From Leptotrichia shahii (GTDB lineage Bacteria; Fusobacteriota; Fusobacteriia; Fusobacteriales; Leptotrichiaceae): 64,000 nucleotides of DNA. The stretch's first letter is position 1, and every line of letters starts with the position of its first letter. The DNA is taken from the NCBI RefSeq assembly GCF_008327825.1, contig NZ_AP019827.1, forward strand, positions 1,798,001-1,862,000, in the 5' to 3' direction. The translations under genes and the position numbers were made by a program. This document shows positions 4,152 to 27,115 of the stretch, one piece after another. The notes beneath the pieces are model-generated. The model worked only from the letters and a program-made list of their open reading frames with translations. It was not told where the DNA came from and did no database searches.

Positions 4152-4898
4152 TTATTTTAAAGCTATATATTTGTCATCTGATTCATTCCCCGCCCTGTTA
4201 CTAAAAAATATATGATCTATTAAATCACTCAAATTTTCGATGGAATTATCGTCTTTTACATCTACAACATAATGAAATTTTCCATTATCAGATTTCAATC
4301 TGTAAATTCTCACTTCCTTGTTTGAAAAATTATTTAGTACAAGATGCCGTCCAAAAGTTGTAAGCCACATAAGTGCTATTGCTACAACTGATCTATTTGC
4401 CATATAGGATTTAAGCAAATACAAGGCAGGCAATATTTCTATGTCAAAAAAACCTTTCCGCCGTGTTTCCATATAAGCATGTTCCATAATTGCTGCTGTT
4501 GTAAGTCCTGCTGTAAAATTATTTATATCCAATTGTAATTTTTCAATTTTACTTTTTCCAAGTCCATACAAAAAAGAAAGCAGTATTGCGGCTCCAGAGT
4601 ATACAGACAATGAATCTATTGATTTTTCCTCAAAATCTTCCACCAGTTTTACTGAAGTCATACCATGCTCAACCGATAGTGCTGTCGCAGTTCGATAAAT
4701 CACTTCATCAATCGTAATTTCTTCTGGCTCAAAAGTTATAAGCAATGTATTTATAGTTCGATTATACCGTAAAGCTGTACTTTTTGCTCCAACTTTTATT
4801 GTTTCAAAAAATTTTTTTGTGTCAATAATTTCATGTGAAACTTTAAATCTGACACGATTTGGTAATTTATGCAATACCGTCAAAGTTAATTTTTTCAT
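4152..4898 (-). CDS. HMA-like membrane protein resembling a truncated P1B-ATPase N-terminus
   Basis: 248 residues. Residues about 1-85 look like an HMA_2-type ferredoxin fold (LHKLPNRVRFKVSHEI, then NTLLITFEP), with no CxxC metal motif. After this come a hydrophobic segment at about 100-112 (SGAAILLSFLYGL) and further ones near 130-185 (TAGLTTAAIMEHAYMETRR, VVAIALMWLTTFGRHL), resembling the first membrane helices of the neighbouring ATPase (compare its TLSSTAIISSIALGSERTALTIM region). There are no DKTGT, TGE or nucleotide-binding motifs, so it cannot be a pump by itself. It sits 36 bp after the ATPase gene. It could be a regulatory or assembly subunit. The function is unknown. Confidence 0.75.
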   Translation of the reverse strand: MKKLTLTVLHKLPNRVRFKVSHEIIDTKKFFETIKVGAKSTALRYNRTINTLLITFEPEEITIDEVIYRTATALSVEHGMTSVKLVEDFEEKSIDSLSVYSGAAILLSFLYGLGKSKIEKLQLDINNFTAGLTTAAIMEHAYMETRRKGFFDIEILPALYLLKSYMANRSVVAIALMWLTTFGRHLVLNNFSNKEVRIYRLKSDNGKFHYVVDVKDDNSIENLSDLIDHIFFSNRAGNESDDKYIALK

Positions 4899-12025: not shown

Positions 12026-14481
12026 ATGTTTTTAGAAAGAACAGAAAGACTAGCGTTAGTTGATTTTGAGAATAGACATATTAATTATATTGATTTAATA
12101 AATAATATAAAATATTTTTCTGAATATATAGTTGATTTAGAAAAGAAAAAATTTGGGCTGATTGTCATGGAAAATCGTCCAGAGTGGATTTACAGCTTTT
12201 TTTCTGTATGGGATAAAAGATCTGCTGGAATTGCCATTGATGCCAATAGTAGTTCAAATGAAATTTTATACGTTCTGGAAGATTCACATCCAAATGTGAT
12301 TTTTTGTTCAAATGAAACAGAAAAAACTATTTTGGAAGCAGTTGAAAAATATAGTTTAAAAGATAGTATAAAATTAGTAAACGTCGATAAGATTATCATT
12401 GAACAGGAAAAGATGAATACTATAAAAAATATGCAATTTGAGCTTGATAATCCAACTGGAGATGAAACAGCCGCTATGCTTTACACTTCAGGAACAACAG
12501 GAAATCCAAAAGGTGTAATGTTATCGTTTAATAACTTAAATACCGAAATGGAAGGACTCTACGAAAAAGGAATATTTGATTATAGAGATCAAATTTTGGC
12601 AATATTGCCGTTTCATCATGTCCTGCCTTTAACTGCAAGTGTGCTTTTAATGTTGAAATATCAAACATCAGTCGTATTTGTAAAAATTGCAAGTAAGGAA
12701 ATATTTGATGCACTTGAAAAAAAATAGGGTAACTGCCATAATTGGAGTGCCTAGAGTATTTAAATTATTTTATGATGGAATAAAGCAGCAAATTGATGCA
12801 AAATTTATTACAAGATTTATTTATAAAATGATGAGTAATGTAAAATCATTAAAAATAAAAAGAAAATTTTGCAAAAGTTCATAAAAATTTGGTGGACATC
12901 TTGACTTTATCGTTGTTGGTGGAGCGAAAATGGATCCTGAAATTTCAAAATTTTACGAAACATTGGGATTTTATGCTTTAGAAGGTTATGGGCTTACTGA
13001 AACTTCTCAGTTATTGCTGTAAATTCAAAAAAAGAGAAAAATTGGGACAGTTGGAAAAAATTACATAATGTGGATATAAAAATTGTGGATGAAGAGTTGT
13101 GGGTTAAAGGACCAATTGTTATGAAGGGATATTACAATAAGCCTGAAAAAACGGCAGAAGTGATTACCGAAGATGGATGGTTTAAAACAGGAGATTTAGC
13201 AACGATTGATGAAGAAGGATTTGTTACAATTCGTGGAAGAAAAATACAATGATTGTTTTATCAAATGGTAAGAACATTGATCCAGAAACGCTTGAAAATA
13301 GAGTAATTGCTAAAAGTAATGGCTTAATTAAGGAAATGGAGTTTTAATCATAAGAATAAACTAGCTGCAATAATTGTCCCAGAATTACTGGAATTTAGAA
13401 AACGTGGAATTACAAATACAAAGGCTTATATTAGAAATATTGTAGAAGATTATAATTTGAAGGCACATAATTATGAAAAAATTCTTGACTACAAACTGTT
13501 TGAAGAAGAGTTGCCAAAAACTCGAGTTGGGAAAATACGTAGATTTATGTTGCCTGATTTATATGAAAAAAATGAAATTACAAAAAAAGAAAAAACGCCT
13601 GAACCAACAGATGAAGCGTACAAAATATTAAAGGAATACGTCAAGAAAAACAAAGGAATTGAGCCACAGCCAGAAGAAAATCTGGAACTTGAAATTGGAA
13701 TGGATTCACTTGATATTGTAGAATTTTTTGCATTTATTGAAAATAGTTTTGGAATTCAGCTAGATGAAGAAAAATTTGCTGAAATGCCAAATTTAAAATT
13801 ATTATCCGAATACATTAACCAGAAAGCTACAAAATTTGAAGACAATGACGTAGATTGGAAGCAAATTATCAGCCAAACAAAGCCAATAGAAGATAATAAA
13901 ATGATGGCTAACAAAATTATTAAAGGTATTTCAGCCAATTATTGACTTATATTTCAGAGTAAAAAATTGATAGAAAAAAATTAACTAATGATCCGCAAAT
14001 TTTCGTATCAAATCACCAAAGTTTTGTAGATCCATTGATTTTAGGTTCATTATTTCCAGGAAAAATTGTCTTTAACACTTTATTTTTAGCAATTGACTGG
14101 TATTTTAAAAAGGTGTAATGAAACTACTTGTTTCAAATGGAAATGTTGTATTAATTGATATTAATAAAAATATCAGAAAAAGTGTGGAAGAAATTGTTGG
14201 ATATTTAAAAGCGGAAAAAGCATTGTGATTTTTCCAGAAGGTGCGAGAACAAGATGGGAAAGTTGCTCAATTTAAAAAGTCTTTGCTATAATAGCAAAGG
14301 AATTAAACATTGATATTCAATGTATTGGTATAAAAGGAGCATTTGAAGCATATTCAAGATATATGAAATTTCCAAAGCCTAAAAATCGAGGTGGCAGTGC
14401 TGGAAAATTTAAACCAGAAGGAACTTATGATGAGATAACTGAAAAGGCAGAAAAATTATAAAAGAATATGTTGAAAATTAA
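12026..14481 (+). pseudogene. Broken acyl-CoA/acyl-ACP synthetase - acyl carrier - PlsC acyltransferase fusion (Aas-like)
   Basis: A former trifunctional phospholipid-acylation protein. 12026-12727 encodes the N-terminal half of an AMP-forming ligase, with the P-loop LYTSGTTGNPKGVM. The frame breaks at an A8 run near 12722 (one A too many), near 12865-12890, at 13008, near 13030-13060, at 13242 and near 13345-13365. In between, clear ligase sequence continues: [41 protein letters not shown]. 13457-13945 is an intact carrier domain with GMDSLDIVEF (phosphopantetheine Ser). From about 13980 a PlsC-type acyltransferase follows (NHQSFVD and FPEGART motifs), again with frame breaks, to TAA at 14479-14481. 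Most breaks are in short homopolymers. They could be real decay or a poorly read stretch. Confidence 0.85.
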
Positions 14482-14745: not shown

Positions 14746-15888
14746 ATGAAAAAAAATATACTACTAATTTTGTTTGCTATTTTAGCTTTTGCACTTGCAT
14801 TAATTATTACAAATCCCAATTTTAAAGATTTTAAGAATAGACTTATAAATTTAGAAAAATAGGTATTTCTAAAAATAGAAATGATGAAAAGAATAAAAAG
14901 ATGAAAAATCTGAATTTACAATAATCGGAGTCGGAGACATAATGCTTGGCTCAAATTACCCGTCTGATTTACTTCAAAAATAATGCAAATATTTTGGAAA
15001 ATACTCAAGATATTCTTCAAAATGCAGATATTACTGTGGGAAATCTGGAAGGAACGTTATTTGATACTGGTGGAACTCAAAAAGCTGTGATAATCAAATG
15101 TATGTTATGCTTTTCGTATGCCGTCAAAATACGGAAAATACTTAAAGCAGGCTGGGTTTAATTATTTAAGTATTGCCAATAATCACAGTAATGATTTTGG
15201 ACAAACAGGAATTAAGGAAACTATCCAAAATCTTAATAATTTGAATATAAAATACTCTGGAATTAAAGGTATCGCTGAAAGCACTATCTTGGAAAAAAAT
15301 GGAAAAAAATTTGGATTTGTTTCATTTGCTCCAAATTCAGCTACTGTAAAATTAAATGATTATAATTATGCAAAAAAACTTATTTCTGAATTAAAATCAA
15401 AAGTTGATATTGTAATTGTTATGTTTCACGGTGGAGCTGAAGGTGCTGGAGCAGAACATATTACTCGAAATCACGAAATTTTTCATGGAGAAGATCGGGG
15501 AAATGTTTATGAATTTGCCCATTTTGCGATAGACAATGGAGCTAACATCGTTTTCGGACAAGGACCACACGTTACAAGAGCGATTGAACTTTACAAAATA
15601 AATTTATCTCTTACAGTGGAGGAAATTTTGCAACTTTCGGAAAAATAAATGTTTCTGGATCAATGGGAATTGCTCCAATTTTTAAGATAAAAATAGATAA
15701 TAATGGAAATTTTGTCTCTGGAGAAGTTATCCCTGTAAGACAAACTTATGAAAGTGCAGGCCCTTTTATAGATTCAGAAAAATTAGCCATCAAAAATAAT
15801 TTCCTTAAATAAATCTGATTTTCCAAATGGAAACGGACTTTCTGTAACTAATAATGGAAAAATAAATAAAATTGGAAATTCAAATTAA
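14746..15888 (+). pseudogene. Broken CapA-like (poly-gamma-glutamate/capsule biosynthesis) protein gene
   Basis: Starts at ATG 14746 with a hydrophobic signal or anchor (KKNILLILFAILAFALALII) and hits TAG at 14860-14862. Conserved CapA-family sequence continues in other frames: IIGVGDIMLGSNYP near 14920-14960 (metal-site motif with GDIML), VGNLEG, the LSIANNHSNDFG motif in the open frame 15118-15648, VIVMFHGGAEG and FGQGPHVTRAIELY. The tail reaches TAA at 15886-15888. At least four frame changes are needed, near 14862, 14975, 15100 and 15600. CapA-like proteins are metallophosphatase-fold proteins tied to extracellular polymer synthesis. This copy is non-functional as read, unless the sequence is in error. 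Confidence 0.82.
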
Positions 15889-16011: not shown

Positions 16012-17256
16012 TTATTTTTTCTTCAATCTAATAATCTCCCTCTCATTTTCATTCATTTTATTTCCTATTTTTTCATTTTCATTCTCTAATTTTTCTATTC
16101 TTTTTTTCTTTTCAATTTCTTCATCTTGAATATTTTTTCTTTCCACAATTACATTATTTGCAATTTTATCATCAGGATTTTCTACAATTTCCATACCTTC
16201 CTCAATATTCATTCCAAAAATTTCAACCTTTTCTCCATTATCCACTCCAACAAAAATCTCCCTTTCCTTAACCAAATTATTTTTATCAATCAAATAAATA
16301 TACTTTTTCTGATTTTTAAAATAACCGCTTTTTTAGGAACAACTAAAACATTCTCTTTCTTTCTATAAATCACACGAATATCCACTTTCTCACTTAAAAT
16401 AAATCTCTAAAAGAAATCGGCAAAAATTCAAGTACATTCATGTTTACAACTTTGTTAATTTTAAATAATTCCGCTTCAATCACTTTCTTTTCAGAAAACA
16501 AATCTAAATCCCTTTATTATCTCTATTTTAAAACCTTTTCACTTTTATCATTTTAATTTCAACTAATTCTTCAAGTGTTTTTCTTCTCCAGCTTTTTATT
16601 TTCTCTCCTAAAAGACTTATTTCAGCCATATTTCCAATACTCAAATTTTTAATTTTTCATCTGTCATACTTTCACTTATTATTTTCAGATCATTCTTTTC
16701 CGTCAAAACCACTACAGGCTTATTTTTATTTATAATTCCACCCTTTACAGCATTAATTTTTACAATATAGCCATCAAACGGACTTCTCACAGTTCTCTGA
16801 ACTAACACAGCATTTTTCATCTCATTTTTACTTCCAGCTCCAATCCATCTATTTCCCCTTTACTTCTTGAATCTTCTTACTCACATCCGCTCCTAATTTC
16901 TGCTGTTTTTCAAGATTCCTCAAATGTGCATTTTTTATAACTAGCAATACTCTTTTTTCAACATCATCACTTTTCTGATAGTCGCTAAATTTTACTATTA
17001 TATCACCCTTTTTCACAAAATCTCCAGCTTTAAAATAAACACCGTCAACTGATAAATTTACATCTAATCCAATTTTAGTAATATTATTTGCAGCAACAGT
17101 TCCTTTCATATTTACAAAAAGTTCAAGATTTTCACGTTTTATTTTGCTGACAATATATTTTTTATTAATTTTAGGTGTACAAAATTTTATCATAAAAAGA
17201 ATAATAAAAATAAAAATCGTTGGCATTAACCAAATTAGTTCATCTTTTTTTTTCAA
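16012..17256 (-). pseudogene. Broken periplasmic adaptor (membrane fusion protein, HlyD/MacA type) gene
   Basis: Begins at a TTG start (17254-17256) preceded by AAAAAGGGGAAAAATA, 15 bp after the Hsp70-like stop, so it was the last gene of that operon. 16849-17256 encodes an N-terminal membrane segment (LMPTIFIFIILFMIKF) and the start of a biotinyl/lipoyl-like barrel (GTVAANNITKIGLDVN, GVYFKAGDFVKKGDIIVKF). After a stop near 16850, adaptor sequence continues in another frame: VRSPFDGYIVKINAVKGG and NKNKPVVVLTEKNDLKI, near 16690-16800. Later pieces are scrambled. The intact piece 16012-16293 encodes the charged C-terminus (EIFVGVDNGEKVEIFGMNIEEGMEIV, a typical MFP membrane-proximal domain end). 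At least four frame breaks are required. No ABC or RND transporter partner is nearby. Confidence 0.78.
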
Positions 17257-17271
17257 TATTTTTCCCCTTTT

Positions 17272-19935
17272 TTAGTGATTTCCATCAAAATAAGAATTTT
17301 CACTTAAATTATCTTCATAAGGAAAATACTGTTTACGTCCAAGATAAAGCTGATCTGACTTTCTTTGAATTGGCACAACAAAAAATCCCCAGTTATTTAG
17401 ATCAGTATAAACAAAAAATCTAACTGTATCATTTTGAATTGTATCAGTGTCATTTTGAGAAATAATATTTACAAATTCTGGCAAGATTTCCTGTGCATCC
17501 ATTTCCTCATAGTCATCTTCATTTTTATAAATCATCTCTTTTTTGAGTTCCCCTTCAGCATTATAGACATAAATTTTTAGCTCTTCAGCTGAACTTTTCT
17601 TGTCAATTTGCCCAACCAAGATATCAGCCTTTCGTGAAGTCTGTATCATTTCAACTCTTTTCCCATCGTATTTTTCCACCCACACAGAATACGGCACAAG
17701 CGGCACTTCATTCACAATTTCCACATCTATATGCCCAAACCGCTTATAATCCAAATATTTTATAGCTCCATCCAGACAGTTCAACTTTAGCTCGTAATCA
17801 TCACGATGACTAAGTTCCTTATATTCAATCATTTTCCCTGGTACAAATTCCTTCAGAACTTCCTGAAATGTACTAATTTTAGTCGATTGTCCGCTCAACT
17901 TTATCAACGAATACTCAAAAAGCAGCCCTTCCTTATAGTAAGTGTTCAAAAATTTTCTAAGCATTCCATAAATATCGGCTTTTACAATTTTTTCTATTTC
18001 CTTTATTGTAAAAATATGTCTTGGATAATCTGTTACTGTGTTAAATATTTCATTTTCATAAGTGTGAATTTTCCAGCTTTTTAACTGCGTTATATGAATG
18101 TCATTCCTTTTTTCATAATTTCTAGGTGCATCAAAACGTGTTCGCAGTCTTCCATCAGATGTAAAAAACTCTTTTTTTAAATTTTCAGCAGCTTCCCAGA
18201 GCATATAAAAATTATTTCGTATTTTTTGATATTCTTCGCTCATTTTATTTTCAAATTGTGAATATTTTGTCGGTATTATTTTCTCATATTTTTCATATTC
18301 CAAATTCATATTTTCAAAAATTTTATCAACACCGCTATCATCAATCACTTTATAAATCATATCATTATCATATTTTATCAAATCATTAACAGAAACAATT
18401 CTATTTTCAGAATACTTTGCCCCCAGCACAATTTTCAAAAACTGCATAATCCTATAAGTCAAGTCATTTCCCCCAAAATTTTCATCTCCATTTTCAAAAC
18501 TTGTTCTTATATCCAAATAATATGAAATCCTGTCCTTATTAATCACATATTTACAAGCCGCTAAATCCGTCGTCCCGCCACCACAATCAATAATTAAAGC
18601 ACTATATTCTTCATTTTCCTTATATCTCCCCTTCCTTATCTGTATCTCAATCGTATTATAAAGCACAGCAATCGCTTCATCCATTGCATTTTCACGAATA
18701 ATTTCATATTCATAATTTTTTTCATAAGAAATTTTATTCTGTTTATCAGCTTCATTTTCAGAACTTTTATTAATTTTATTTTCTACCATAAAAATTTCCT
18801 GAAACATTGTCAAAAACTGCTCTTTTAATTTTACAGGACTGGAAGCATGAATCTTTTTAAATTTGCATTTAAACATATATTCTGCACGATTTACAACATA
18901 TTTCAAATAAGCCTTTATTATTTCCTTTCTTTTTACATACAAAATATTCCCAAACTCATCATTAATTTTTTCCAGATTATTATGTTCATGCACCCACCTT
19001 TTCAAGTTATAAAAAATCGAGCCATTAACAATATAATCATTTTTTTCCAATTTTCTTACCACATCATATCCAAACGAATACTTAATATTATTACTATCAC
19101 TGCAATCCTCAACATAAACTAACGTTGGAAAAATTTCACGGTAATGCCTTTCCCCATCATCAAATTTCACATAGTTTATCGCATCAATGACAACATTCCC
19201 ATTCAAAATATCATTAGTCGGCAAATCCCTCACATAATTTCTATCCAGATATGCTCCCAAAGCTGTATTCACAGTTCCAAAATCAATACAAAGCGGAGTA
19301 TTTGTAGTTTCCAGATTTTTTACAACAAAATTTTCAATTTCAACTTTATAATAATCCATCTGATATGGATAAAGCGGATATGGCTCATCTTCCTTCCAAT
19401 TATAAAATTCATGAATAAATTTTAAGTCATTTTCTTTAAAAAATAAAAACGAAAACTTATTATTTCTCAATGTTTCAACTCTAAAAAATTCTTTTTTACT
19501 AATTAAAAAATATTTATTCCTACTTTTCAAATCTTTTTCCAGATGAAAAATTCCACAAAGATAATTATTTGCATTTATAAGAAAAACGTTTGCAATGCTG
19601 ACATTTTCAGGAATTTCAATTTTATAATTATCCTCTCTCATTAAATCAAGTTCCTTATACAAAATAATTTTGTGCGGCACTCGTATTTTATTTTCATGAT
19701 GAATCCTTTCTCCAAGTTTACTGTCAAAAAGCTGCTGAACATTCACAAGCCCATTTTTATTATACTTGTCAATACAATAATTAGCCTTCACTCCCCGATA
19801 CTTCATCAGAAGTGCAATTAGCTCCTCTCTCGTAGGCGTTTCCAAATGCACATCCACCAACTTTTCCTCAATCGCAATTTGATACATCTCATAATAGGAT
19901 TTTCTCCGTAATTCTTCCTCATAAAACAATTTCAT
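17272..19935 (-). CDS. Hsp70/actin-fold ATPase with long N-terminal extension (SrfB-like)
   Basis: 887 residues. An N-terminal region of about 210 residues matches nothing I recognise. Then come the Hsp70/actin signatures: phosphate-1 loop CIDFGTVNTALG (216-227), phosphate-2 loop IIDCGGGTTDLA (448-459) and an adenosine-type motif IKLSGQSTKI (679-687). A beta-rich C-terminus (about 725-887) replaces the canonical substrate-binding and lid domains, and there is no EEVD tail. It therefore probably binds and hydrolyses ATP, but with unusual clients. Proteins of this shape are annotated as Hsp70 family or virulence factor SrfB. It is last of the intact genes in the kinase/PP2C/FHA/J-domain block, separated from the kinase gene by a MITE-like element. 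A J-domain protein at the other end of the block is a plausible partner. Confidence 0.85.
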   Translation of the reverse strand: MKLFYEEELRRKSYYEMYQIAIEEKLVDVHLETPTREELIALLMKYRGVKANYCIDKYNKNGLVNVQQLFDSKLGERIHHENKIRVPHKIILYKELDLMREDNYKIEIPENVSIANVFLINANNYLCGIFHLEKDLKSRNKYFLISKKEFFRVETLRNNKFSFLFFKENDLKFIHEFYNWKEDEPYPLYPYQMDYYKVEIENFVVKNLETTNTPLCIDFGTVNTALGAYLDRNYVRDLPTNDILNGNVVIDAINYVKFDDGERHYREIFPTLVYVEDCSDSNNIKYSFGYDVVRKLEKNDYIVNGSIFYNLKRWVHEHNNLEKINDEFGNILYVKRKEIIKAYLKYVVNRAEYMFKCKFKKIHASSPVKLKEQFLTMFQEIFMVENKINKSSENEADKQNKISYEKNYEYEIIRENAMDEAIAVLYNTIEIQIRKGRYKENEEYSALIIDCGGGTTDLAACKYVINKDRISYYLDIRTSFENGDENFGGNDLTYRIMQFLKIVLGAKYSENRIVSVNDLIKYDNDMIYKVIDDSGVDKIFENMNLEYEKYEKIIPTKYSQFENKMSEEYQKIRNNFYMLWEAAENLKKEFFTSDGRLRTRFDAPRNYEKRNDIHITQLKSWKIHTYENEIFNTVTDYPRHIFTIKEIEKIVKADIYGMLRKFLNTYYKEGLLFEYSLIKLSGQSTKISTFQEVLKEFVPGKMIEYKELSHRDDYELKLNCLDGAIKYLDYKRFGHIDVEIVNEVPLVPYSVWVEKYDGKRVEMIQTSRKADILVGQIDKKSSAEELKIYVYNAEGELKKEMIYKNEDDYEEMDAQEILPEFVNIISQNDTDTIQNDTVRFFVYTDLNNWGFFVVPIQRKSDQLYLGRKQYFPYEDNLSENSYFDGNH

Positions 19936-20027
19936 CTCTATATTTTCCCCTTTATTTATTAAATTTGTGAAAATTTAAACTTTTTATATAATTCTATAAA
20001 AAAAATCTTTATACCGATAAATTTATA

Positions 20028-20133
20028 TATACTCATACACATTCAAAATTAAACTATTAAAAACTATATAAACTTAGAGTTTGAGTAAAATATCCATAGC
20101 TTTTGAGTTCAGTTTTAAATTAGTTTTACTATA
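20028..20133 (-). mobile_element. MITE-like element, copy 1 (106 bp)
   Basis: Read on the minus strand, this aligns without gaps to 27518-27623 over 106 bp, with about 87 identical positions by hand count. Ends are TATAGTAAAACT... and ...GAGTATA. It carries no gene. It sits in the 261-bp gap between the kinase and Hsp70-like genes of one operon. The flanking TA is consistent with TA target-site insertion (Tc1/mariner-IS630 type), though no transposase is in the window. Confidence 0.75.
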
Positions 20134-20196
20134 CATTTATATAAAATTATAGAATTTTTTTACATGAACTATATTTTAAAAATTAACAAATATTAT

Positions 20197-21102
20197 TTAT
20201 AATAATTCTAATTTTTCAATCATTTCCCTAACACTCTTAAATCTCTTTTTCCTTTCAAATTCCAATCCTTTTTTTATTATTTTTTCCACTTCCTTAAATT
20301 TCCCAATTTTCTCAAATCCTAAAATCACTTCTCTTGCAAACTCCAATTCTGGCTTATAAAACCTCTTAACTGCCCCATCAATTTTCTTCCCACAAAGCAT
20401 AAAATACAAAAGTGCCGAAAGTGAATAAACATCCACTCTCTCATCAATCTGAACCTTTTTTGAATAAACTTCAATAGCTGAATATCCTTCTGAAACCTCA
20501 ATAAAATCTATCTTTTGCCCTTTTCTCAAACTTGACCCAAAATCAATAATTCTAATATTTCCCCTAATATCAATTAAAATATTTGAAGGTTTTAAATCAC
20601 AGTGAATAATACCTTTCTTATGAATCTTACCGACAACTCTTACAATTTTTCTAAATATTTTTAAAATATCGTTTATTCTTGTTTTTTCATCTTGAATCTT
20701 ATTTTCTAAAATATACTTTTTCAAAGTAATCCCAAAATATTCCATAACGATATAATTTGTTCCATTTTCACTAAAAAAATCTAAAATCCTAATGACATCA
20801 TCTTTAATAACTTTATTCCAAAATTTCCCCTTACTTCCTTTAGACTTCTTACAAAACTTTTCTAAAATATGTTTCTCTTTCCGAAAACATTCTTTCAATT
20901 TCTCAAAATCTTTTCTATATTTCTCTGTAAAAACTTTATTTTCATACCTCATAACAATTTCAGAGGGATAACATTCTTTCACAGCCACTTTTTTCCTTTG
21001 ACCATTTTCAGCCAAATAAATATTAGAAAAATCACTTTTAGCCACATAATTTATAATCTTATATTTCCCATTTAATATTGTTCCCTTTGATAAAAAATCC
21101 AT
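20197..21102 (-). CDS. Serine/threonine protein kinase (non-RD type)
   Basis: A 301-residue Hanks-type kinase without a membrane span or sensor domain. The P-loop is degenerate (VAKSDFSNIYLA at 20-31, no GxGxxG). Catalytic Lys42 is in VAVKE. The catalytic loop is HCDLKPSNIL (Asp169), with Cys in place of the Arg of HRD kinases. The DFG triad is at 187-189, and SAIEVY (208-213) stands in for APE. Conserved Asp224 is in DVYSLSALLYFML. All residues needed for phosphotransfer are present. The lack of HRD Arg suggests activity without activation-loop phosphorylation. It lies 14 bp after a PP2C-like gene and upstream of the Hsp70-like gene, in a block with two FHA proteins, which in general bind phosphothreonine. 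Targets are probably within the block. Confidence 0.93.
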   Translation of the reverse strand: MDFLSKGTILNGKYKIINYVAKSDFSNIYLAENGQRKKVAVKECYPSEIVMRYENKVFTEKYRKDFEKLKECFRKEKHILEKFCKKSKGSKGKFWNKVIKDDVIRILDFFSENGTNYIVMEYFGITLKKYILENKIQDEKTRINDILKIFRKIVRVVGKIHKKGIIHCDLKPSNILIDIRGNIRIIDFGSSLRKGQKIDFIEVSEGYSAIEVYSKKVQIDERVDVYSLSALLYFMLCGKKIDGAVKRFYKPELEFAREVILGFEKIGKFKEVEKIIKKGLEFERKKRFKSVREMIEKLELL

Positions 21103-21116
21103 CTCACTTTTCCCTT

Positions 21117-22496
21117 TTATATTTTCTTCAAATTATTTCCATTCATATCACGTTCTAAAATTTCCCAGTTTCTCTCAATTTCCCTTTCAAGCTGTGAAAG
21201 TTTATCATTTTTTAAATTATACTCTTTTTTAAAACTTTTATTATCTACATTAAAATTTTTTTTATTTTGCTCCTCTTTATTTCTATCAATTTTTTTTCTT
21301 ACCTGCTGACTTTTCCCTTTTTCTCCGCTTTTCACTTTACTTTTTTTACTTTCTCCATTTTCGTCAGCATTTTGAACTATTTCCAAATTTTTCACATTCT
21401 TATTTTTTTCTTTTCCACTTTTAATTACATTTCTTGTTTTATTTTTCTCTGTATTTCTAGCTTTTTCCTCAATATTTCCAACATTTTTCTGTCTAATTTT
21501 ATTTTTTTCCATTATTTTATTTTGCTCCATTTCACTTTTTTCAATCAAATTATTTTCTATTAATTTCGCCTTTTCCTTAATTTTTCCAGCCACCACACTT
21601 TCTAAAATTTTTTCCTTCTTAATTTTCAAATTCCCCTTTTGAATATTTTTCCCCACTGAAATAAACAAAGATAAAAATATTATCACTAAAAACACATATT
21701 TTACAGCTATTTTCCTTTTCTTATTTTCCCTATTAATTTCCCTTTCCAATTCTTCGTCATTATCTTCCATTTCAATATTTTCCACAAAAATTGACAAAAA
21801 TGGTATCACTTTTTTTAATTTCACTTCAGCATCCTTTATTTTCCTACTTAAATTTTTCTCGATATTCCCCTTACTTTTCAAATCAACAAAAACTTCCTCA
21901 ATCTCATTCTCATTAACATTTTTCCAAAACTCAGGACTTCCAGCCAACAAATAGTCATTTTTCCGTAACTTTACTTTCTTAATTTCCTCTCCACATATTT
22001 TTTCCACAATCCTATTTTCCCGATACAAAGTAAGTTCAGTTTTCCCCATATTTCCCACAATCATATCATCTTTGTCAATAATAACAACAATTTGTGAATA
22101 AAAATCTTTTAAATCAAAATATTTTTCATTATTTTTTTCAACTTTAAAAAATTTACTTTTCTCAAAAATTACTTTATCTTTGGAAGACTGTATTATCTTT
22201 TTCATATTTTCAATTGAAAAACTACTATTTTCCAAATATTTTTCAATAACTTTATGAACTCCAGCTTTTGCTAAATTTTTCCTTTTAACATTTTTTTTAT
22301 TTATAATACTACTATTTTCTATTTTTTGATCTATTTCTATATTTTCTTGTTTTTTATCATATATTTTTTCCTCAAGATTAGCAATACACCAAATTCCTCT
22401 ATTTCCATTTGGAATGTATGCTGAATATGTATCTTTTTCAGCAATTTGCACATATTCCTTAAAAAAGAAAGTATTTAATTTTATATTTTTTACCAT
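21117..22496 (-). CDS. Degenerate PP2C-like membrane protein (predicted pseudophosphatase)
   Basis: The Shine-Dalgarno GGGAGGGGG lies inside a longer open frame, so the start is best placed at ATG 22496 (459 residues) rather than 22511. The N-terminal 240 residues echo the PP2C protein encoded next door: GIWCIANLEE in place of GIWAVADGFDEE, IVGNMGKTELTLYREN in place of the GN.G.TR strand, and DYLLAGSPEFWKNV in place of the LL.SDGL motif. The metal-binding Asp residues are gone. One membrane span (YVFLVIIFLSLFISVG, about residue 267-282) is followed by a long Lys/Glu/Asn-rich coiled-coil tail. It overlaps the neighbouring gene's terminus region and is 14 bp before the kinase. It probably acts as a binding or scaffold protein. 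Enzyme activity is unlikely. Confidence 0.75.
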   Translation of the reverse strand: MVKNIKLNTFFFKEYVQIAEKDTYSAYIPNGNRGIWCIANLEEKIYDKKQENIEIDQKIENSSIINKKNVKRKNLAKAGVHKVIEKYLENSSFSIENMKKIIQSSKDKVIFEKSKFFKVEKNNEKYFDLKDFYSQIVVIIDKDDMIVGNMGKTELTLYRENRIVEKICGEEIKKVKLRKNDYLLAGSPEFWKNVNENEIEEVFVDLKSKGNIEKNLSRKIKDAEVKLKKVIPFLSIFVENIEMEDNDEELEREINRENKKRKIAVKYVFLVIIFLSLFISVGKNIQKGNLKIKKEKILESVVAGKIKEKAKLIENNLIEKSEMEQNKIMEKNKIRQKNVGNIEEKARNTEKNKTRNVIKSGKEKNKNVKNLEIVQNADENGESKKSKVKSGEKGKSQQVRKKIDRNKEEQNKKNFNVDNKSFKKEYNLKNDKLSQLEREIERNWEILERDMNGNNLKKI

Positions 22497-22512
22497 TTTT
22501 CCCCCTCCCATC

Positions 22513-24915
22513 TTAAAAAATCTTCCAGAACTGCCACCATTTCCTATTTACCTTTTTCACGGCTCTTTTCAATTCTTTCCCTATTTTTTCCAATTCATTT
22601 TGCTTTATCCCAGCCTTTTCCAGTTTTTCCTTTGCCTGCGTAAGTTTTTCCATAGCATCTTTCCATTTTTTATTTTTCAGATCCTCTTCTCCCTTTTTTT
22701 TCAGCAAATATCCTTCACTTTTTTCAATTTTTTTATTTAAATCTTCAATCTTACCTGCTTGATTTCCAAAATTTCCATCCACATTTACTTCTTCCAAAAG
22801 TTTTTTAGTTTCTTCATATTTTGAGATACTTTCCTCATATTTTTCATCTATAGCCAGTTGATCCGCCTGCCTTTCTAGATTTGAAGCATTTTCCATTTTT
22901 CTTGATATTTCTTCCCGCTTTTGCCTTTCTCTCTCCATTTGTTCCTGCTGTGCCTTTATTTCTGCTTCTTTTACCTGCAATTGCTGCTGCAGCTGAATTT
23001 CCTGCTGTCTTAGCTTTTCTGAATATTCTATTTCTTGAGATTTTAATTTTTCCGAATATTGCAATTCCTTTTCCTTCAGTTTTTCAGCATTCTGACTTTC
23101 AAACTTGATAAATTCCCGTGCCTGGCTTATATATTTTCCAACAGTATTTACATTATTTGTATCTTTCATTTTTTGATAAATATTTTTAGCCTGTGTCAAA
23201 ATTCCTATTGCCTGTGCTGGATTGTTTGCTGTTATTTGTGAAAGTCCTTCCTGAACAAGATTATTAGCAGTCTGTAAATCAGCATTTTGCTGTGAATTAA
23301 CCTCTTGTATCTTATTGTCAATTTCTCCTGCTTTCACAGTATCTCCAAGCGTCTGGTACATCTGACGTGCCTGATAATAAGCCTCTTTTGAAGAATTAAT
23401 GTTACTTTGTGCTAGTGAATCTCCTTTGTTTTCTGCAAGCATCGCACCATTATATGCCGTTTTTTCCTTATCCGCTATTTCTTCTATTTTTTTCTCAATT
23501 TGTGAAACATAATCTGCTCTTCCATTTGCTAAATACATATCTTCTGCATTTTTATAACTAACTTTTGCCAAATTATAGCTTCCTTCATTAACCGCATTAT
23601 CTCCAGCCATTTCCAAAGCCTTTGCCTCTTTTAATTTCACAGCCGAATTTATCCGTGAATCCAACGTCGTTAAAATTTCTTCTGTATTCAGTTCATCACG
23701 TTTATAGCTATTGTCATTCAAATTATATTTAGCCTGCTGATATTTTACGTTTGCCTCATCATAATTTCCATTATTAAACAGTTCATTTCCTTCATTAATA
23801 TTTGAAAATGCCTCTTTAATTTTTTCCGTTTCTTCAATTTTCTTTTTTATCTCACTAATTTTTTTATCCGCATCATTTCTTTTTTTCTCAGCATTTGTAA
23901 GAAATCCTATTATTCCTTTACTTTTTGGCTTTAATTTTTCATATTCTCCAGCTTCTAATTTCAAGTTATCAATTGAATTACTAAAATTCTTTTTCAAAAT
24001 CTCTTCATCTGCTAACTTTTCATATTGTGTCGCCGCCTGTAAAATACTATTTCGTCTTTTTACATTCCAAATTATAATAAATAAAATAATCACAACAACT
24101 ATCATTACTACTAAAATTATCTTTTTTATAAGTTTACTTCTATCCTTTACCATAGGCTCTGAACTGGCTACAGCCTGCACTTCTACCTGTGTAATCGTAT
24201 AATTTTCAATATTATCCCTAAGCGAAGCGAGTATCCTCTTTTCCAATGAATTTAACCATTGCTTTTTATCCTCAAATCTGGATAAATCATTTTCCATATC
24301 GTGTTCATCGATATTTTCCCAAAATCCCACAGTCGCCAAGCAAAAAATATCATTTTCCATAAGCTCCACAGGACTTTTTATAATATTTGGCTTAATTTTT
24401 CCAAAATCCCCAATTGCCTGTAGCAAATCATTTCTTTGCCTGTGAAATCTCATATCTGATATATTTAATGCCTCTTCATCCACCAAAAGCTGTGCTATCG
24501 TATCATCTTTACTCTGAGAAACAATATATCCGCCTCTAATATGATAAAACCTTGTATTTCCAATATTTCCATATAAAATTGAATTATAATTGCTTACGAC
24601 GATCAAAAGGGAAGTGTGCATAAGAGAATATTTTTTAGCTTCCTCCTGTTTTTCCTTAACCTTTAAATTGGCATAATCCATCATTTCCTTTATTACATCA
24701 TAATTAAATCGTGGACGCAGCATAAAATATTCAATTACAGATTCTACAGCAATCCTTGCTGCAGCTTTTGCCCCTTCTTCCTCATCAAATCCATCAGCCA
24801 CAGCCCAAATCCCATAATTATCCAGCAAAACATATCCAAAATAATCACTATTTTCAGCTTTCGTCCCAGCTTCACTCAAAAATTCCGTAATAAATTTTGC
24901 CTCATCTTTCCTCAT
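22513..24915 (-). CDS. PP2C-like phosphatase domain, membrane span and long repeat/coiled-coil tail
   Basis: 800 residues. A PP2C-type domain occupies about 1-250: GIWAVADGFDEEEGAKAA (metal-site Asp41-Gly42), NSILYGNIGNTRFYHIRGG (111-128), SKDDTIAQLL (135-144), DIFCLATVGFWENI (189-202; TVG replaces the usual SDG, losing one metal Asp), and DNIENYTITQVEV (234-246). A membrane span lies at about 263-285 (KIILVVMIVVVIILFIIIW). The rest is helical: TPR-like repeats (for example NEGNELFNNGNYDEANVKYQ) and a Gln/Glu/Lys coiled coil around 610-680, ending in more repeat-like helices. The cytoplasmic PP2C would be linked to a periplasmic tail. It may dephosphorylate kinase targets, but the TVG substitution leaves activity uncertain. 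The next gene downstream is its eroded paralog. Confidence 0.82.
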   Translation of the reverse strand: MRKDEAKFITEFLSEAGTKAENSDYFGYVLLDNYGIWAVADGFDEEEGAKAAARIAVESVIEYFMLRPRFNYDVIKEMMDYANLKVKEKQEEAKKYSLMHTSLLIVVSNYNSILYGNIGNTRFYHIRGGYIVSQSKDDTIAQLLVDEEALNISDMRFHRQRNDLLQAIGDFGKIKPNIIKSPVELMENDIFCLATVGFWENIDEHDMENDLSRFEDKKQWLNSLEKRILASLRDNIENYTITQVEVQAVASSEPMVKDRSKLIKKIILVVMIVVVIILFIIIWNVKRRNSILQAATQYEKLADEEILKKNFSNSIDNLKLEAGEYEKLKPKSKGIIGFLTNAEKKRNDADKKISEIKKKIEETEKIKEAFSNINEGNELFNNGNYDEANVKYQQAKYNLNDNSYKRDELNTEEILTTLDSRINSAVKLKEAKALEMAGDNAVNEGSYNLAKVSYKNAEDMYLANGRADYVSQIEKKIEEIADKEKTAYNGAMLAENKGDSLAQSNINSSKEAYYQARQMYQTLGDTVKAGEIDNKIQEVNSQQNADLQTANNLVQEGLSQITANNPAQAIGILTQAKNIYQKMKDTNNVNTVGKYISQAREFIKFESQNAEKLKEKELQYSEKLKSQEIEYSEKLRQQEIQLQQQLQVKEAEIKAQQEQMERERQKREEISRKMENASNLERQADQLAIDEKYEESISKYEETKKLLEEVNVDGNFGNQAGKIEDLNKKIEKSEGYLLKKKGEEDLKNKKWKDAMEKLTQAKEKLEKAGIKQNELEKIGKELKRAVKKVNRKWWQFWKIF

Positions 24916-25126
24916 CTTCCCATTTCTCCCTGTGTTTTTTATTAATTCAATTTTATAAATATATTTTTACATATTTATTTTATATATGAAAATTATTTAT
25001 TTTGTTCTATATTAGCAACTTATCTAAATATTTATACTTTTAATTATAATAATTAATTCATTTACTAAGCAAAATTTCGTTAAAAATAAAAATTTAAATT
25101 ATAAACAGTTTTTAAATTTATTAAAC

Positions 25127-25765
25127 TTATTCATATTCTTCAATTTTTACTTCTAAATCATTATTTTTATTCTGAAAATTCGTATTTTTCACAATTTTTT
25201 CATCATTTAAATTTTCGTGTTTCCTCTTCACGTTTTCCTCTCTTGCTTTTTCCTTTTCCCAATCAAAATAGTCTCCACAAAGATTTACAAACACAAACTT
25301 ACTTTCCCCCATTTCCATAACTGAATAAGCCCTTAATTCTACCGTATTATAGACAGCTTCTCCATTTAAATAAATTAGCCCGTTAGAATCTCCAGGAGTT
25401 AGCATAAACTTACGCTGTTTTGGATTATAGCTTATCGAGCAATGATTTTTTCTAGAAATCATAGTATCGCCTGAAATTTGAATGTCCATATTTTCCCCAC
25501 GTCCAATAAAGTTCCGCTCACTCACAATCCTGTAATCTTTCCCCTTGTCATGCCCTTCAATGCACGTAAGCCATCCCACAACAGGATCTACAGTGCTATC
25601 TTTTGACCAGTAGGCAGTAGTTCTATCCTCATCTTCCATTTGCTCAACTAAATTAATTTTATCATCTTGTGTTTCTGTTTCAAATCCTTCCGATTTACAG
25701 TAGGGACACGAACTATATCTAGAAATATCGTATATATGCCCATTTTTACATCTATCTAATTTCAT
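25127..25765 (-). CDS. Zinc-ribbon and FHA domain protein
   Basis: A GGAGGA Shine-Dalgarno lies inside the first codons of the longest frame, so ATG 25765 is the better start (212 residues) than 25783. The N-terminus, RCKNGHIYDISRYSSCPYCKSEG, has a C-x3-H ... CPYC pattern, a probable zinc ribbon. An FHA domain follows at about 65-165: NFIGRG, SRKNHCSISYN (the conserved Ser-Arg-x-x-His core) and SNGLIYLNG. The C-terminus is charged and low in complexity. FHA domains bind phosphothreonine peptides, so this is a probable reader of the kinase encoded in the same block. It sits 25 bp after the membrane FHA gene. A 211-bp AT-rich gap with no recognisable terminator separates it from the PP2C gene. 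Confidence 0.85.
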   Translation of the reverse strand: MKLDRCKNGHIYDISRYSSCPYCKSEGFETETQDDKINLVEQMEDEDRTTAYWSKDSTVDPVVGWLTCIEGHDKGKDYRIVSERNFIGRGENMDIQISGDTMISRKNHCSISYNPKQRKFMLTPGDSNGLIYLNGEAVYNTVELRAYSVMEMGESKFVFVNLCGDYFDWEKEKAREENVKRKHENLNDEKIVKNTNFQNKNNDLEVKIEEYE

Positions 25766-25790
25766 TTTAAAATATTCCTCCATTTTTTAT

Positions 25791-26609
25791 TTATTTTAAT
25801 AATATTTTTGTAGTTGCCAAATAAATTATATCGCCTGATTCCACTTTTATAGGTATATTTTTTTTTAATTTTATTTTTCGCTTATCCAGATTTTTTTCAA
25901 TTCCACTCCCGTTTTGCGAGCCTAAATCTTCATAATACCAAATTCCATTAACACGATTTAAAATGCCGTGAGCTCTGCTAACCAAATTAGAATAAATTCC
26001 TTCACTTACATCAATATCCACTCTATTTCTAGGCGACTGTTTCCCAATTAAAAGAGAAGTCGCCCTTCCAACTTTCCATATTTTCATATCATAATCTTCA
26101 GAATCCTTCAAAAATATATGCTCAATCTGATTTTTCTCCAAATTCTCTATTTCCTTCACTCTTTCTAAAAAAACATTATGTTCCCTTTCTCTATCATTTT
26201 TTATATTTTTAATTTCCTCTTGAACTTCTGCTTTTTCAAAAAATCTTTCCACAATAAGCAAGTAAAGTGTAACTCCAATATAAATAAAAATTGAAAAATA
26301 AAGACTTTTTATAGAATATCCTGAAAAATGCACAAAAATAAATGTAAACATCAAAACCATCATTATCAAAATATTTTTTACATTAAAAAATTTATAACTT
26401 TTCTGATTTCTTGTATTTAATTTTCGCTTTTCATATTTTTTTATCCCTTTGTCAACTCCCAAACTGCTTCTTTCAGTATTACTTTTACCATTTTCTCTCA
26501 TTCGTGCAACACTTCTGAGTCTTTCCAGCCGATAAATGCTCCCACGCCCAAATGGTCGTTTAAAAATACTTCTGAAATTCCTCAGAAATCTTCTGATTCC
26601 CCATAACAT
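25791..26609 (-). CDS. Membrane protein with C-terminal FHA domain
   Basis: 272 residues. A very basic N-terminal region (about 1-75, Arg/Lys-rich) is followed by two membrane spans (about 79-97, LILIMMVLMFTFIFVHF region, and 103-121, LYFSIFIYIGVTLYLLIV). A charged helical linker leads to a cytoplasmic FHA domain from about 175: VGRATSLLIGK, SNLVSRAHGIL (Ser211-Arg212-x-His214) and DLGSQNGSGI (Asn233-Gly234), the conserved phosphothreonine-binding positions. It follows the J-domain gene by 2 bp, so translation is probably coupled. It is likely the membrane anchor for phospho-dependent assembly of this module. No enzyme domain is visible. Confidence 0.85.
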   Translation of the reverse strand: MLWGIRRFLRNFRSIFKRPFGRGSIYRLERLRSVARMRENGKSNTERSSLGVDKGIKKYEKRKLNTRNQKSYKFFNVKNILIMMVLMFTFIFVHFSGYSIKSLYFSIFIYIGVTLYLLIVERFFEKAEVQEEIKNIKNDREREHNVFLERVKEIENLEKNQIEHIFLKDSEDYDMKIWKVGRATSLLIGKQSPRNRVDIDVSEGIYSNLVSRAHGILNRVNGIWYYEDLGSQNGSGIEKNLDKRKIKLKKNIPIKVESGDIIYLATTKILLK

Positions 26610-26611
26610 TT

Positions 26612-27046
26612 TTATCCTTTTCCTTTCATATCAAAAAAACGCTCAAACTGAATTTTTATATTTTCCTTCTCTAATTTCGCTTTTCCCTCTTGCTTTTTAT
26701 TCATCCTAAAACTATTTTCAAACATCCCTCTCATTTCCCTAGCACTTTTAAAAAAATCCCTTCCGAAAGTAAAATCGTTTTGAGGAAATTTATTTTTAAC
26801 ATTTCCTTTTTTATTCTTATTTTTTCTTTGACTCTGAATATTCTTCCTTCTACAATCATACTCTTCTCTTTTCTTTTCATCCCCAAGAATCTCATAAGCC
26901 TCAGTTACCTCCCGAAATTTCTTAGTAGCATTTCCATCTCCTGAATTCCTGTCTGGATGATATTTTATCGCCAATTTCCTATATTTTTTCTTTATTTCTG
27001 AAACATCAGCATTTTCAGACACACCTAATACTTCATAATAATTCAT
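26612..27046 (-). CDS. Short J-domain (DnaJ-like) protein, first gene of the kinase/FHA/Hsp70-like block
   Basis: 144 residues. A J domain occupies about 1-65: [20 protein letters not shown], the catalytic His30-Pro31-Asp32 triplet in [11 protein letters not shown], and [21 protein letters not shown]. It lacks the Gly/Phe region, zinc finger and C-terminal substrate domains of DnaJ, so it is a type III J protein. The remaining half is basic and low in complexity. The HPD triplet is what stimulates Hsp70 ATPases, and the same block encodes an Hsp70-like protein, which is the obvious candidate partner. A near-consensus promoter lies 41 bp upstream, and the Shine-Dalgarno is AAGGAAG. Confidence 0.92.
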
Positions 27047-27086: not shown

Positions 27087-27115
27087 ATAATACTATATTT
27101 TTATATATTTGTCAA
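27087..27115 (-). promoter_or_regulatory. Promoter of the J-domain/FHA/PP2C/kinase/Hsp70-like block
   Basis: On the minus strand TTGACA and TATTAT are separated by 17 bp, 41 bp before the J-domain start. It has a consensus -35 box, so strong expression is expected unless repressed. Confidence 0.8.

Follow-up and report, generated by a model that had tools for sequence, protein, structure and literature searches.

A fusobacterial gene block that probably provides phospho-regulation and chaperones for a type VI-like contractile injection system

A stretch of 64,000 nucleotides from Leptotrichia shahii (contig NZ_AP019827.1, positions 1,798,001 to 1,862,000; hereafter the window, its genome being G000) carries a block of seven consecutive minus-strand genes. 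They encode a J-domain protein, two FHA proteins, two PP2C-like proteins, a Ser/Thr kinase and an Hsp70-like (Hsp70L) ATPase. As judged from sequence, this block probably supplies the phospho-regulation and the chaperones of a fusobacterial contractile injection system that resembles type VI, and that it belongs to an injection system is very likely. In relatives the gene order is conserved, the block shares a locus with VgrG-, PAAR- and Hcp-like genes and with a gene for a sheath candidate of ~716 amino acids (aa), termed F8, and block and machine genes co-occur at the genome level. Leptotrichia and its relatives are common in human mucosal communities. If the reading is true, contact-dependent competition in Fusobacteriota becomes directly testable, as does the question whether an Hsp70/J pair can do the work of the type VI Clp-type ATPase.

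Gene order and co-occurrence

The open reading frame (ORF) list, together with Pfam and profile comparison, confirmed all seven genes, each intact:

26612..27046 (-), J-domain protein, 144 aa, J domain only, HPD present (PF00226 DnaJ, 1e-28)
25791..26609 (-), membrane-anchored FHA protein (FHAm), 272 aa, hydrophobic windows from residue 74 to ~120 (PF00498, 9e-7)
25127..25783 (-), FHA protein with an N-terminal CxxGH...CPYC ribbon (FHAz), 218 aa (PF00498, 7.2e-8; sequence)
22513..24915 (-), PP2C-like 1, 800 aa, membrane span near residues 259-288, long repeat tail (PP2C_2 PF13672, 2e-8)
21117..22511 (-), PP2C-like 2, 464 aa, more degenerate, one membrane span near residues 266-291 (profile comparison)
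20197..21102 (-), Ser/Thr kinase, 301 aa, non-RD (HCDLKPSN), VAVK and DFG kept (PF00069 Pkinase, 1.4e-28)
17272..19935 (-), Hsp70-like ATPase, 887 aa, own N-terminal domain, IDFGTVNT, DCGGGTTD and LSGQ (motifs, profile comparison)

In the nine mapped main copies of Leptotrichia the genes run J, FHAm, FHAz, PP2C-like 1, PP2C-like 2, kinase and Hsp70-like, and an adaptor gene of 411-419 aa, here intact, comes next. Outside Leptotrichia the block is preceded by F8, by a ~144-aa tube gene (F6) and in most also by F10 (~259 aa), for example in loci L053, L055, L057-L061 and L063-L069, so that the full shared-locus order reads F8-F6-F10-J-FHAm-FHAz-PP2C-kinase-Hsp70L. The maps include L057, with broken Hsp70-like and PP2C-like genes, and L048, a decaying second copy of the system in G069, whose Hsp70-like and adaptor genes are broken. 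Two Leptotrichia genomes, G070 and G072, carry a second locus of ~50 kb (L105-L106-L044 and L108-L109-L046), where F8, F6, F10, J, FHA, PP2C-like, kinase and Hsp70-like genes are interleaved with VgrG-like and PAAR-like genes and, in L105-L106-L044, with TPR genes as well. Pfam matches in L044 comprised DUF4280 (8.1e-6, over the cut-off), Phage_GPD (1.3e-6) and Phage_base_V (4e-5), while Pfam and PHROGs scans of several neighbour genes found little.

An earlier reading of the window, made from sequence only, had proposed that the seven genes form one functional block. The same ordered unit recurs in many fusobacterial genera, with its homologs adjacent in conserved order rather than scattered, which bears this out. 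The same reading pictured a stand-alone chaperone or assembly signalling machine; because of the co-occurrence and of the loci that the relatives' block shares with VgrG, PAAR-like and Hcp-like genes, a free-standing module was rejected as the main explanation.

Among 98 Fusobacteriota genomes, F8 was found in 34 and the Hsp70-like gene in 31: both in 30, F8 alone in 4, the Hsp70-like gene alone in 1 and neither in 63 (Fisher 9e-20, which overstates the certainty since the genomes are related). Each occurs in 14 of 29 genera. The F8-only genomes are G050 (partial F8), G075 (only scraps of F8 and F6 retained), G095 and G093; the last has an Hsp70-like gene in the same locus, L119, bringing the genomes with both to 31. 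The single Hsp70-only genome, G047, was counted on a marginal match (E=6e-4, 82 residues) that looks spurious. F8 and the tube gene occur together in 34 genomes, with the tube alone in 2; VgrG is present in 35 of the 98, G000 among them, and accompanies F8 in 31 (F8 alone 3, VgrG alone 4). Two Leptotrichia genomes, G074 and G077, lack F8, F6, VgrG and the Hsp70-like gene alike. The distance from F8 to the Hsp70-like gene is at most 52 kb in 22 of the 31 genomes with both (21 by start distance, plus G093 via L119, and counting the second copy in G070 and G072), and in G049, G073, G076 and G078 the two lie on separate assembly contigs.

Partners of the injection machine

The profile of the VgrG-like family (A3) found its best PDB matches among spikes of the type VI secretion system (T6SS), with T6SS VgrG (8gra) at 9.5e-16, and a pool including the VgrG of G000 matched TIGR03361 at 1.3e-9. 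In four genomes of one genus (G093, G094, G095, G096) the VgrG-like match is split over two separate open frames, of ~193-196 and 279-282 aa. The PAAR-like family was recognised by DUF4280 (2.7e-13) and CHAP (1.3e-6), with one matching member apiece in the pool that includes a 1280-aa protein of G000 (L101:16000-19842), and both domains were assigned to that protein by its sequence. In the tube family (A2), TssD, which we take to be the Hcp model of Bacteroidota type, was matched by 6 of 13 members. A further family, F14, matches the tube family by hhalign (E=8.3e-17). A 576-aa protein at L052:9559-11289 has an N-terminal region that can be aligned to the tube family and is possibly a tube fused to cargo; it was excluded from the hhalign tube profile.

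F8 directly precedes the tube gene, just as gp18 precedes gp19 in T4 and tssB-tssC precede hcp on three type VI plasmids, and its length is close to that of TssB plus TssC. From this position and length, we infer that F8 is the sheath. F10, F11 and F12 were tried as baseplate proteins by hhalign against TssE, partial TssF and TssK, which failed. Near the F8 and tube genes of L114 (G063), a 3434-aa open frame runs on the minus strand from position 4623.

Kinase, FHA and PP2C-like proteins

The window kinase has the catalytic motifs VAVK, HCDLKPSN and DFG. Membrane spans are predicted for three of the seven block proteins, in agreement with the membrane anchors proposed earlier. The Pfam scan of the window returned nothing for PP2C-like 2 or the Hsp70-like protein; in profile comparison PP2C-like 2 matched PP2C-like 1 (E=1.2e-18) and intact PP2Cs (E=7.3e-6), with two unrelated control profiles at noise level.

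Intact small PP2C genes in L050, L053 and L056, which keep ED, DGMGG, GDS, SDG and DN, served as alignment reference. Against these, PP2C-like 1 of the window keeps the DG motif but has TVG in place of SDG and EN in place of DN, and PP2C-like 2 has lost more motifs, the SDG and DN aspartates included. The sequence-only reading had ascribed lost catalytic residues to the second protein, which is correct, but as a contrast to the first, which lacks them too. PP2C-like 1 is thus a predicted pseudophosphatase. The role of eraser once given to the PP2C proteins is doubtful, because the metal-binding aspartates of SDG and DN are gone from both; a PF13672 search, which took in eight chosen genomes, found no further PP2C in G000, PF00481 not having been searched.

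The Hsp70-like protein and its J partner

The motifs that we take to be phosphate-1 (IDFGTVNT), phosphate-2 (DCGGGTTD) and adenosine (LSGQ) stand in the right order for an Hsp70 nucleotide-binding domain in the window Hsp70-like protein, which is absent from the matches of the Pfam HSP70 model. A profile of ten members with intact motifs matched DnaK/HscC at E=4.2e-5 (Prob 69.6), and a profile of all 17 members, degenerate ones included, did so more weakly (E=0.002, Prob 13.6). A genome-contig scan found relatives at 93% identity at two loci, both in Leptotrichia (L. hongkongensis and Leptotrichia oral taxon 879). G000 encodes a second Hsp70 of 549 aa (G000:C1 ~1636890-1638509), presumably HscC-like.

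In a tree of 32 F8 proteins, one per genome, with second copies and the fragments of G050 and G075 left out, nine genomes form one clade with support 1.0. Among the eight of its genomes inspected, the J gene was unseen in the locus and DFGTxNT, GGGTTD and LSGQ are all gone; G095 was assigned to this J-less clade by its F8 alone. The seven clade kinases printed have DFG altered or not found, a change that is less specific because G049, not a member of the clade, has DFS as well. All fully read loci beyond the clade have intact Hsp70 motifs, and a J gene with HPD is present in 19 genomes, with a J-family gene, its HPD unchecked, in G049 and G066. The 4.8-kb contig of G046 carries only F8, the tube, the kinase and the start of the Hsp70-like gene, and G028 has interrupted Hsp70-like and PP2C-like genes. 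Since J gene and Hsp70 motifs were lost together in one clade, the data support a J/Hsp70-type pair, as had been proposed from the window.

Comparison with known systems

Canonical TssC (PF05943) was found in none of the 98 genomes, by a search whose positive control in E. coli worked, and ClpV (TIGR03345) above the cut-off in none of 12 chosen genomes. A ClpB-like gene is present in 11 of those 12; G049, rated 100% complete and carrying the injection genes, gave no ClpB/ClpV-like match. Among the scanned locus proteins neither TssJLM nor Afp11/Afp16 (DUF4255)-type core proteins of the extracellular contractile injection system (eCIS) were seen, no genome-wide search having been made for either. 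Although the system is taken to work like a T6SS, two sequence-defined features, TssC and ClpV, were not found where searched, and it is therefore not classed as a member.

With T6SSiii of Bacteroidota the fusobacterial system shares a VgrG spike, a PAAR-like tip and a weak TssD-type tube signal. It differs in having no TssC by PF05943 or hhalign and no ClpV over the cut-off in the 12 genomes, in its kinase-FHA-PP2C-like-Hsp70-J block, and in F8 as a single ~716-aa protein. T6SSiii, in the excerpted sources, is without a trans-envelope subcomplex and has TssN, TssO and TssP (PMC4793230, PMC8632748). Francisella T6SSii resembles the present system in its divergent core, its DUF4280 PAAR-like tip (PMC5014421, in part) and the lack of a dedicated ClpV; there the general ClpB is listed in ClpV's place (PMC8632748, in part), whereas here the locus has its own Hsp70-like and J proteins.

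Known T6SS control runs via PpkA-type kinases and FHA proteins. The PpkA-PppA-Fha pathway likewise ties a kinase, an FHA reader and a PP2C-fold protein to a contractile-type locus; here, in contrast, there are two FHA proteins, the PP2C-like proteins of the window are catalytically degenerate, and J and Hsp70-like proteins stand in the block. With the Hsp70/J systems (DnaK-DnaJ, HscC) the block shares the phosphate-1, phosphate-2 and adenosine motifs in order and a linked J protein with HPD. It departs from them in that the ATPase falls outside Pfam HSP70, has ~210 residues before the ATPase part, shows no recognised substrate-binding domain and has lost its motifs in one clade.

In its excerpted text, a survey of secretion systems confines T6SSiii to Bacteroidetes and T6SSii to Francisella (PMC4793230), the Sneathia amnii genome paper reports few genes of known secretion systems (PMC3535699), and a survey of polymorphic toxins names fusobacteria in rows with several export routes, one of which is T6SS (PMC3482391). 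In a comparative genome paper on Leptotrichiaceae the terms type VI, T6SS, secretion, phage and sheath never occur (PMC5093955). Among the titles and abstract starts listed in searches of the full-text literature, with preprints and most subscription journals outside it, none described a fusobacterial contractile injection system or linked Hsp70, J or FHA proteins to such a system.

Mobile elements, defence systems and similar cassettes were also considered. A phage or plasmid origin was rejected on empty searches: F8 and the Hsp70-like protein had no match in 50,697 phage records or in plasmids, and F8, F6, VgrG and the Hsp70-like protein none in viral contigs. The VgrG of G000 weakly matches two Paenibacillus plasmids (best 4e-9, 54% covered). 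A defence system was rejected, as PADLOC gave only kinase matches (mad6 2.4e-33, PD-T4-6 4.7e-30 and others) and one PP2C match (2.5e-9), the other block proteins being unmatched. The window FHAz matches 19 plasmid records; the two Leisingera regions opened (L158, L159) are kinase-FHA-PP2C-dynamin cassettes with an FHA domain resembling FHAz, and represent another system.

Parts in the L. shahii genome

The sequence-only reading had stated that no secretion genes are present, which is right for the window itself but misleading for the genome, where VgrG, PAAR-like and Hcp-like genes lie elsewhere. G000 carries all the machine parts, spread over four loci. F8 (738 aa, C1:758551-760767) and F10 occupy C1:758551-761784; before them come a 171-aa ORF and, further out, the gene for the 1280-aa PAAR-CHAP protein. 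An isolated tube gene lies at C1:1173605-1174042, and C1:968517-975917 holds a VgrG-like gene, the genes for F11 and F12 (putative baseplate proteins, by context) and a second tube-like gene, among unrelated genes.

Beside the block in the window stands one decayed gene that is part of the Leptotrichia order:

16012..17256 (-), pseudogene, membrane-fusion-adaptor-like (tblastn; 18 in-frame stops)

By tblastn an intact 418-aa relative spans its full length. That the gene is broken, as noted earlier, therefore stands, but the label of membrane-fusion adaptor is weakly supported, with RND_mfp at 8.2e-7 for a fragment, far under the cut-off, and HlyD_3 at 0.0011 for the intact relative, also under it. 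The adaptor gene was unseen in the fetched stretches of loci outside the family and of the J-less clade, so it may be accessory.

Model and alternatives

In the proposed mechanism the kinase would phosphorylate machine subunits. As happens in type VI secretion through the PpkA-Fha pathway, the FHA proteins, one of them membrane-bound, would then recognise this modification and promote assembly at the envelope. The two PP2C-like proteins, both anchored in the membrane, would serve as pseudophosphatase scaffolds instead of erasers. Subunits of the sheath or baseplate would pass from the J protein to the Hsp70-like ATPase, and this would either prevent misassembly or recycle the sheath after contraction, as ClpV does in known systems. 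That Hsp70-like and J proteins may service the sheath is suggested by the lack of TssC and ClpV in the genomes searched; sheath recycling by this pair is a tentative proposal. For the kinase and FHA proteins the analogy to known systems is strong; it is moderate for the chaperone role and open for recycling. Equally speculative is a separate fusobacterial class of machine, with a single ~716-aa sheath, a phosphorylation-gated Hsp70/J pair for ClpV in assembly and recycling, and membrane-anchored pseudophosphatases in the envelope complex. In G000 the gene for a PAAR-like protein that bears a CHAP domain, of peptidoglycan-hydrolase type, lies a short way upstream of F8, which makes antibacterial payloads probable.

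Several results weigh against a type VI-like injection module. Known sheaths were matched to F8 by no sequence method tried, so it is called a sheath candidate here: PDB gave nothing convincing, 12 members showed no sheath family among the first 25 of 36 Pfam families, NCBIfam gave no sheath match, and hhalign against T4 gp18, TssC and TssB stayed at noise level (TssC from plasmids of Azospirillum, Rhizobium, Leisingera, Thioclava, Pantoea, Paraburkholderia and Cupriavidus; TssB from the first five). The TssD signal of the tube family is weak (best 3.6e-5, and one member at 16.6 bits, below the cut-off of 25.8), and hhalign found no match to three proteobacterial Hcp or T4 gp19. The VgrG profile also matches non-T6SS contractile spikes (All3320 4.1e-9, Pvc8 2.9e-4, Afp8 0.0099). 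The AlphaFold model of the Hsp70-like protein (three near-identical rows) is unusable, with a predicted local distance difference test (pLDDT) of 31.2. G081 has intact Hsp70-like motifs and no J gene that was found, and the co-loss is confined to a single clade, so that on present evidence it counts as one event. That clade retains the tube and sheath-candidate genes, which means that an active pair is not essential everywhere; the pair is therefore an adjustable layer and not an invariant core. Finally, in five Leptotrichia genomes (G000, G069, G071, G079, G080) the block lies 0.31-1.26 Mb from F8.

This last distance would fit a module for envelope signalling and chaperoning in general, one that has its island in common with the machine but does not act on it, and kinase-FHA-PP2C cassettes do occur elsewhere with other partners, such as the dynamin-family genes of the Leisingera plasmids. 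Such a module is very improbable given the near-complete co-occurrence over 98 genomes, the joint absence from G074 and G077, the mixing of its genes with those for VgrG, PAAR-like and TPR proteins in L105-L106-L044 and the order with F8, F6 and F10 conserved in other genera. The injection genes might instead form a released particle of eCIS or tailocin type, or a domesticated prophage, with the block as its host-side regulator. The negative searches for TssC (98 genomes) and for ClpV above the cut-off (12 genomes) and the matches to the All3320, Pvc8 and Afp8 spikes fit this proposal, but it is improbable as well: the best VgrG matches are T6SS spikes, the phage and viral-contig searches were empty, and the membrane spans in three of the seven block proteins suit a cell-bound machine. 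DUF4280 also speaks against it, being a PAAR-like T6SS family, though one found in Gram-positives too (PMC5349215, in part).

A type VI-like injection module could also have become inactive in this particular strain, where the adaptor has its 18 in-frame stops and two more decayed genes adjoin. There is some chance of this, albeit a small one, because each of the seven genes is under purifying selection (dN/dS, the ratio of nonsynonymous to synonymous substitution rates, 0.036-0.42 against two Leptotrichia relatives), F8, F6, VgrG and the PAAR-CHAP gene are open frames in G000, and the adaptor that was lost may be accessory.

Flanking features of the window

Three further features flank the block:

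27087..27115 (-), promoter-like site TTGACA-17-TATTAT, just upstream of the J gene (consensus match only, 11/12)
12026-14449 (+), decayed AMP-binding/acyltransferase gene in several pieces
14746-15885 (+), remains of a gene that is intact (~385 aa) beside the block in other Leptotrichia

The promoter scan returned 98 sites against a mean of 65.3 in shuffles, and the sole 11/12 site is the one preceding the J gene. An intact 830-aa relative of the decayed AMP-binding/acyltransferase gene is found in L063, and the remains at 14746-15885 are, by the look of their sequence, presumably CapA-like.

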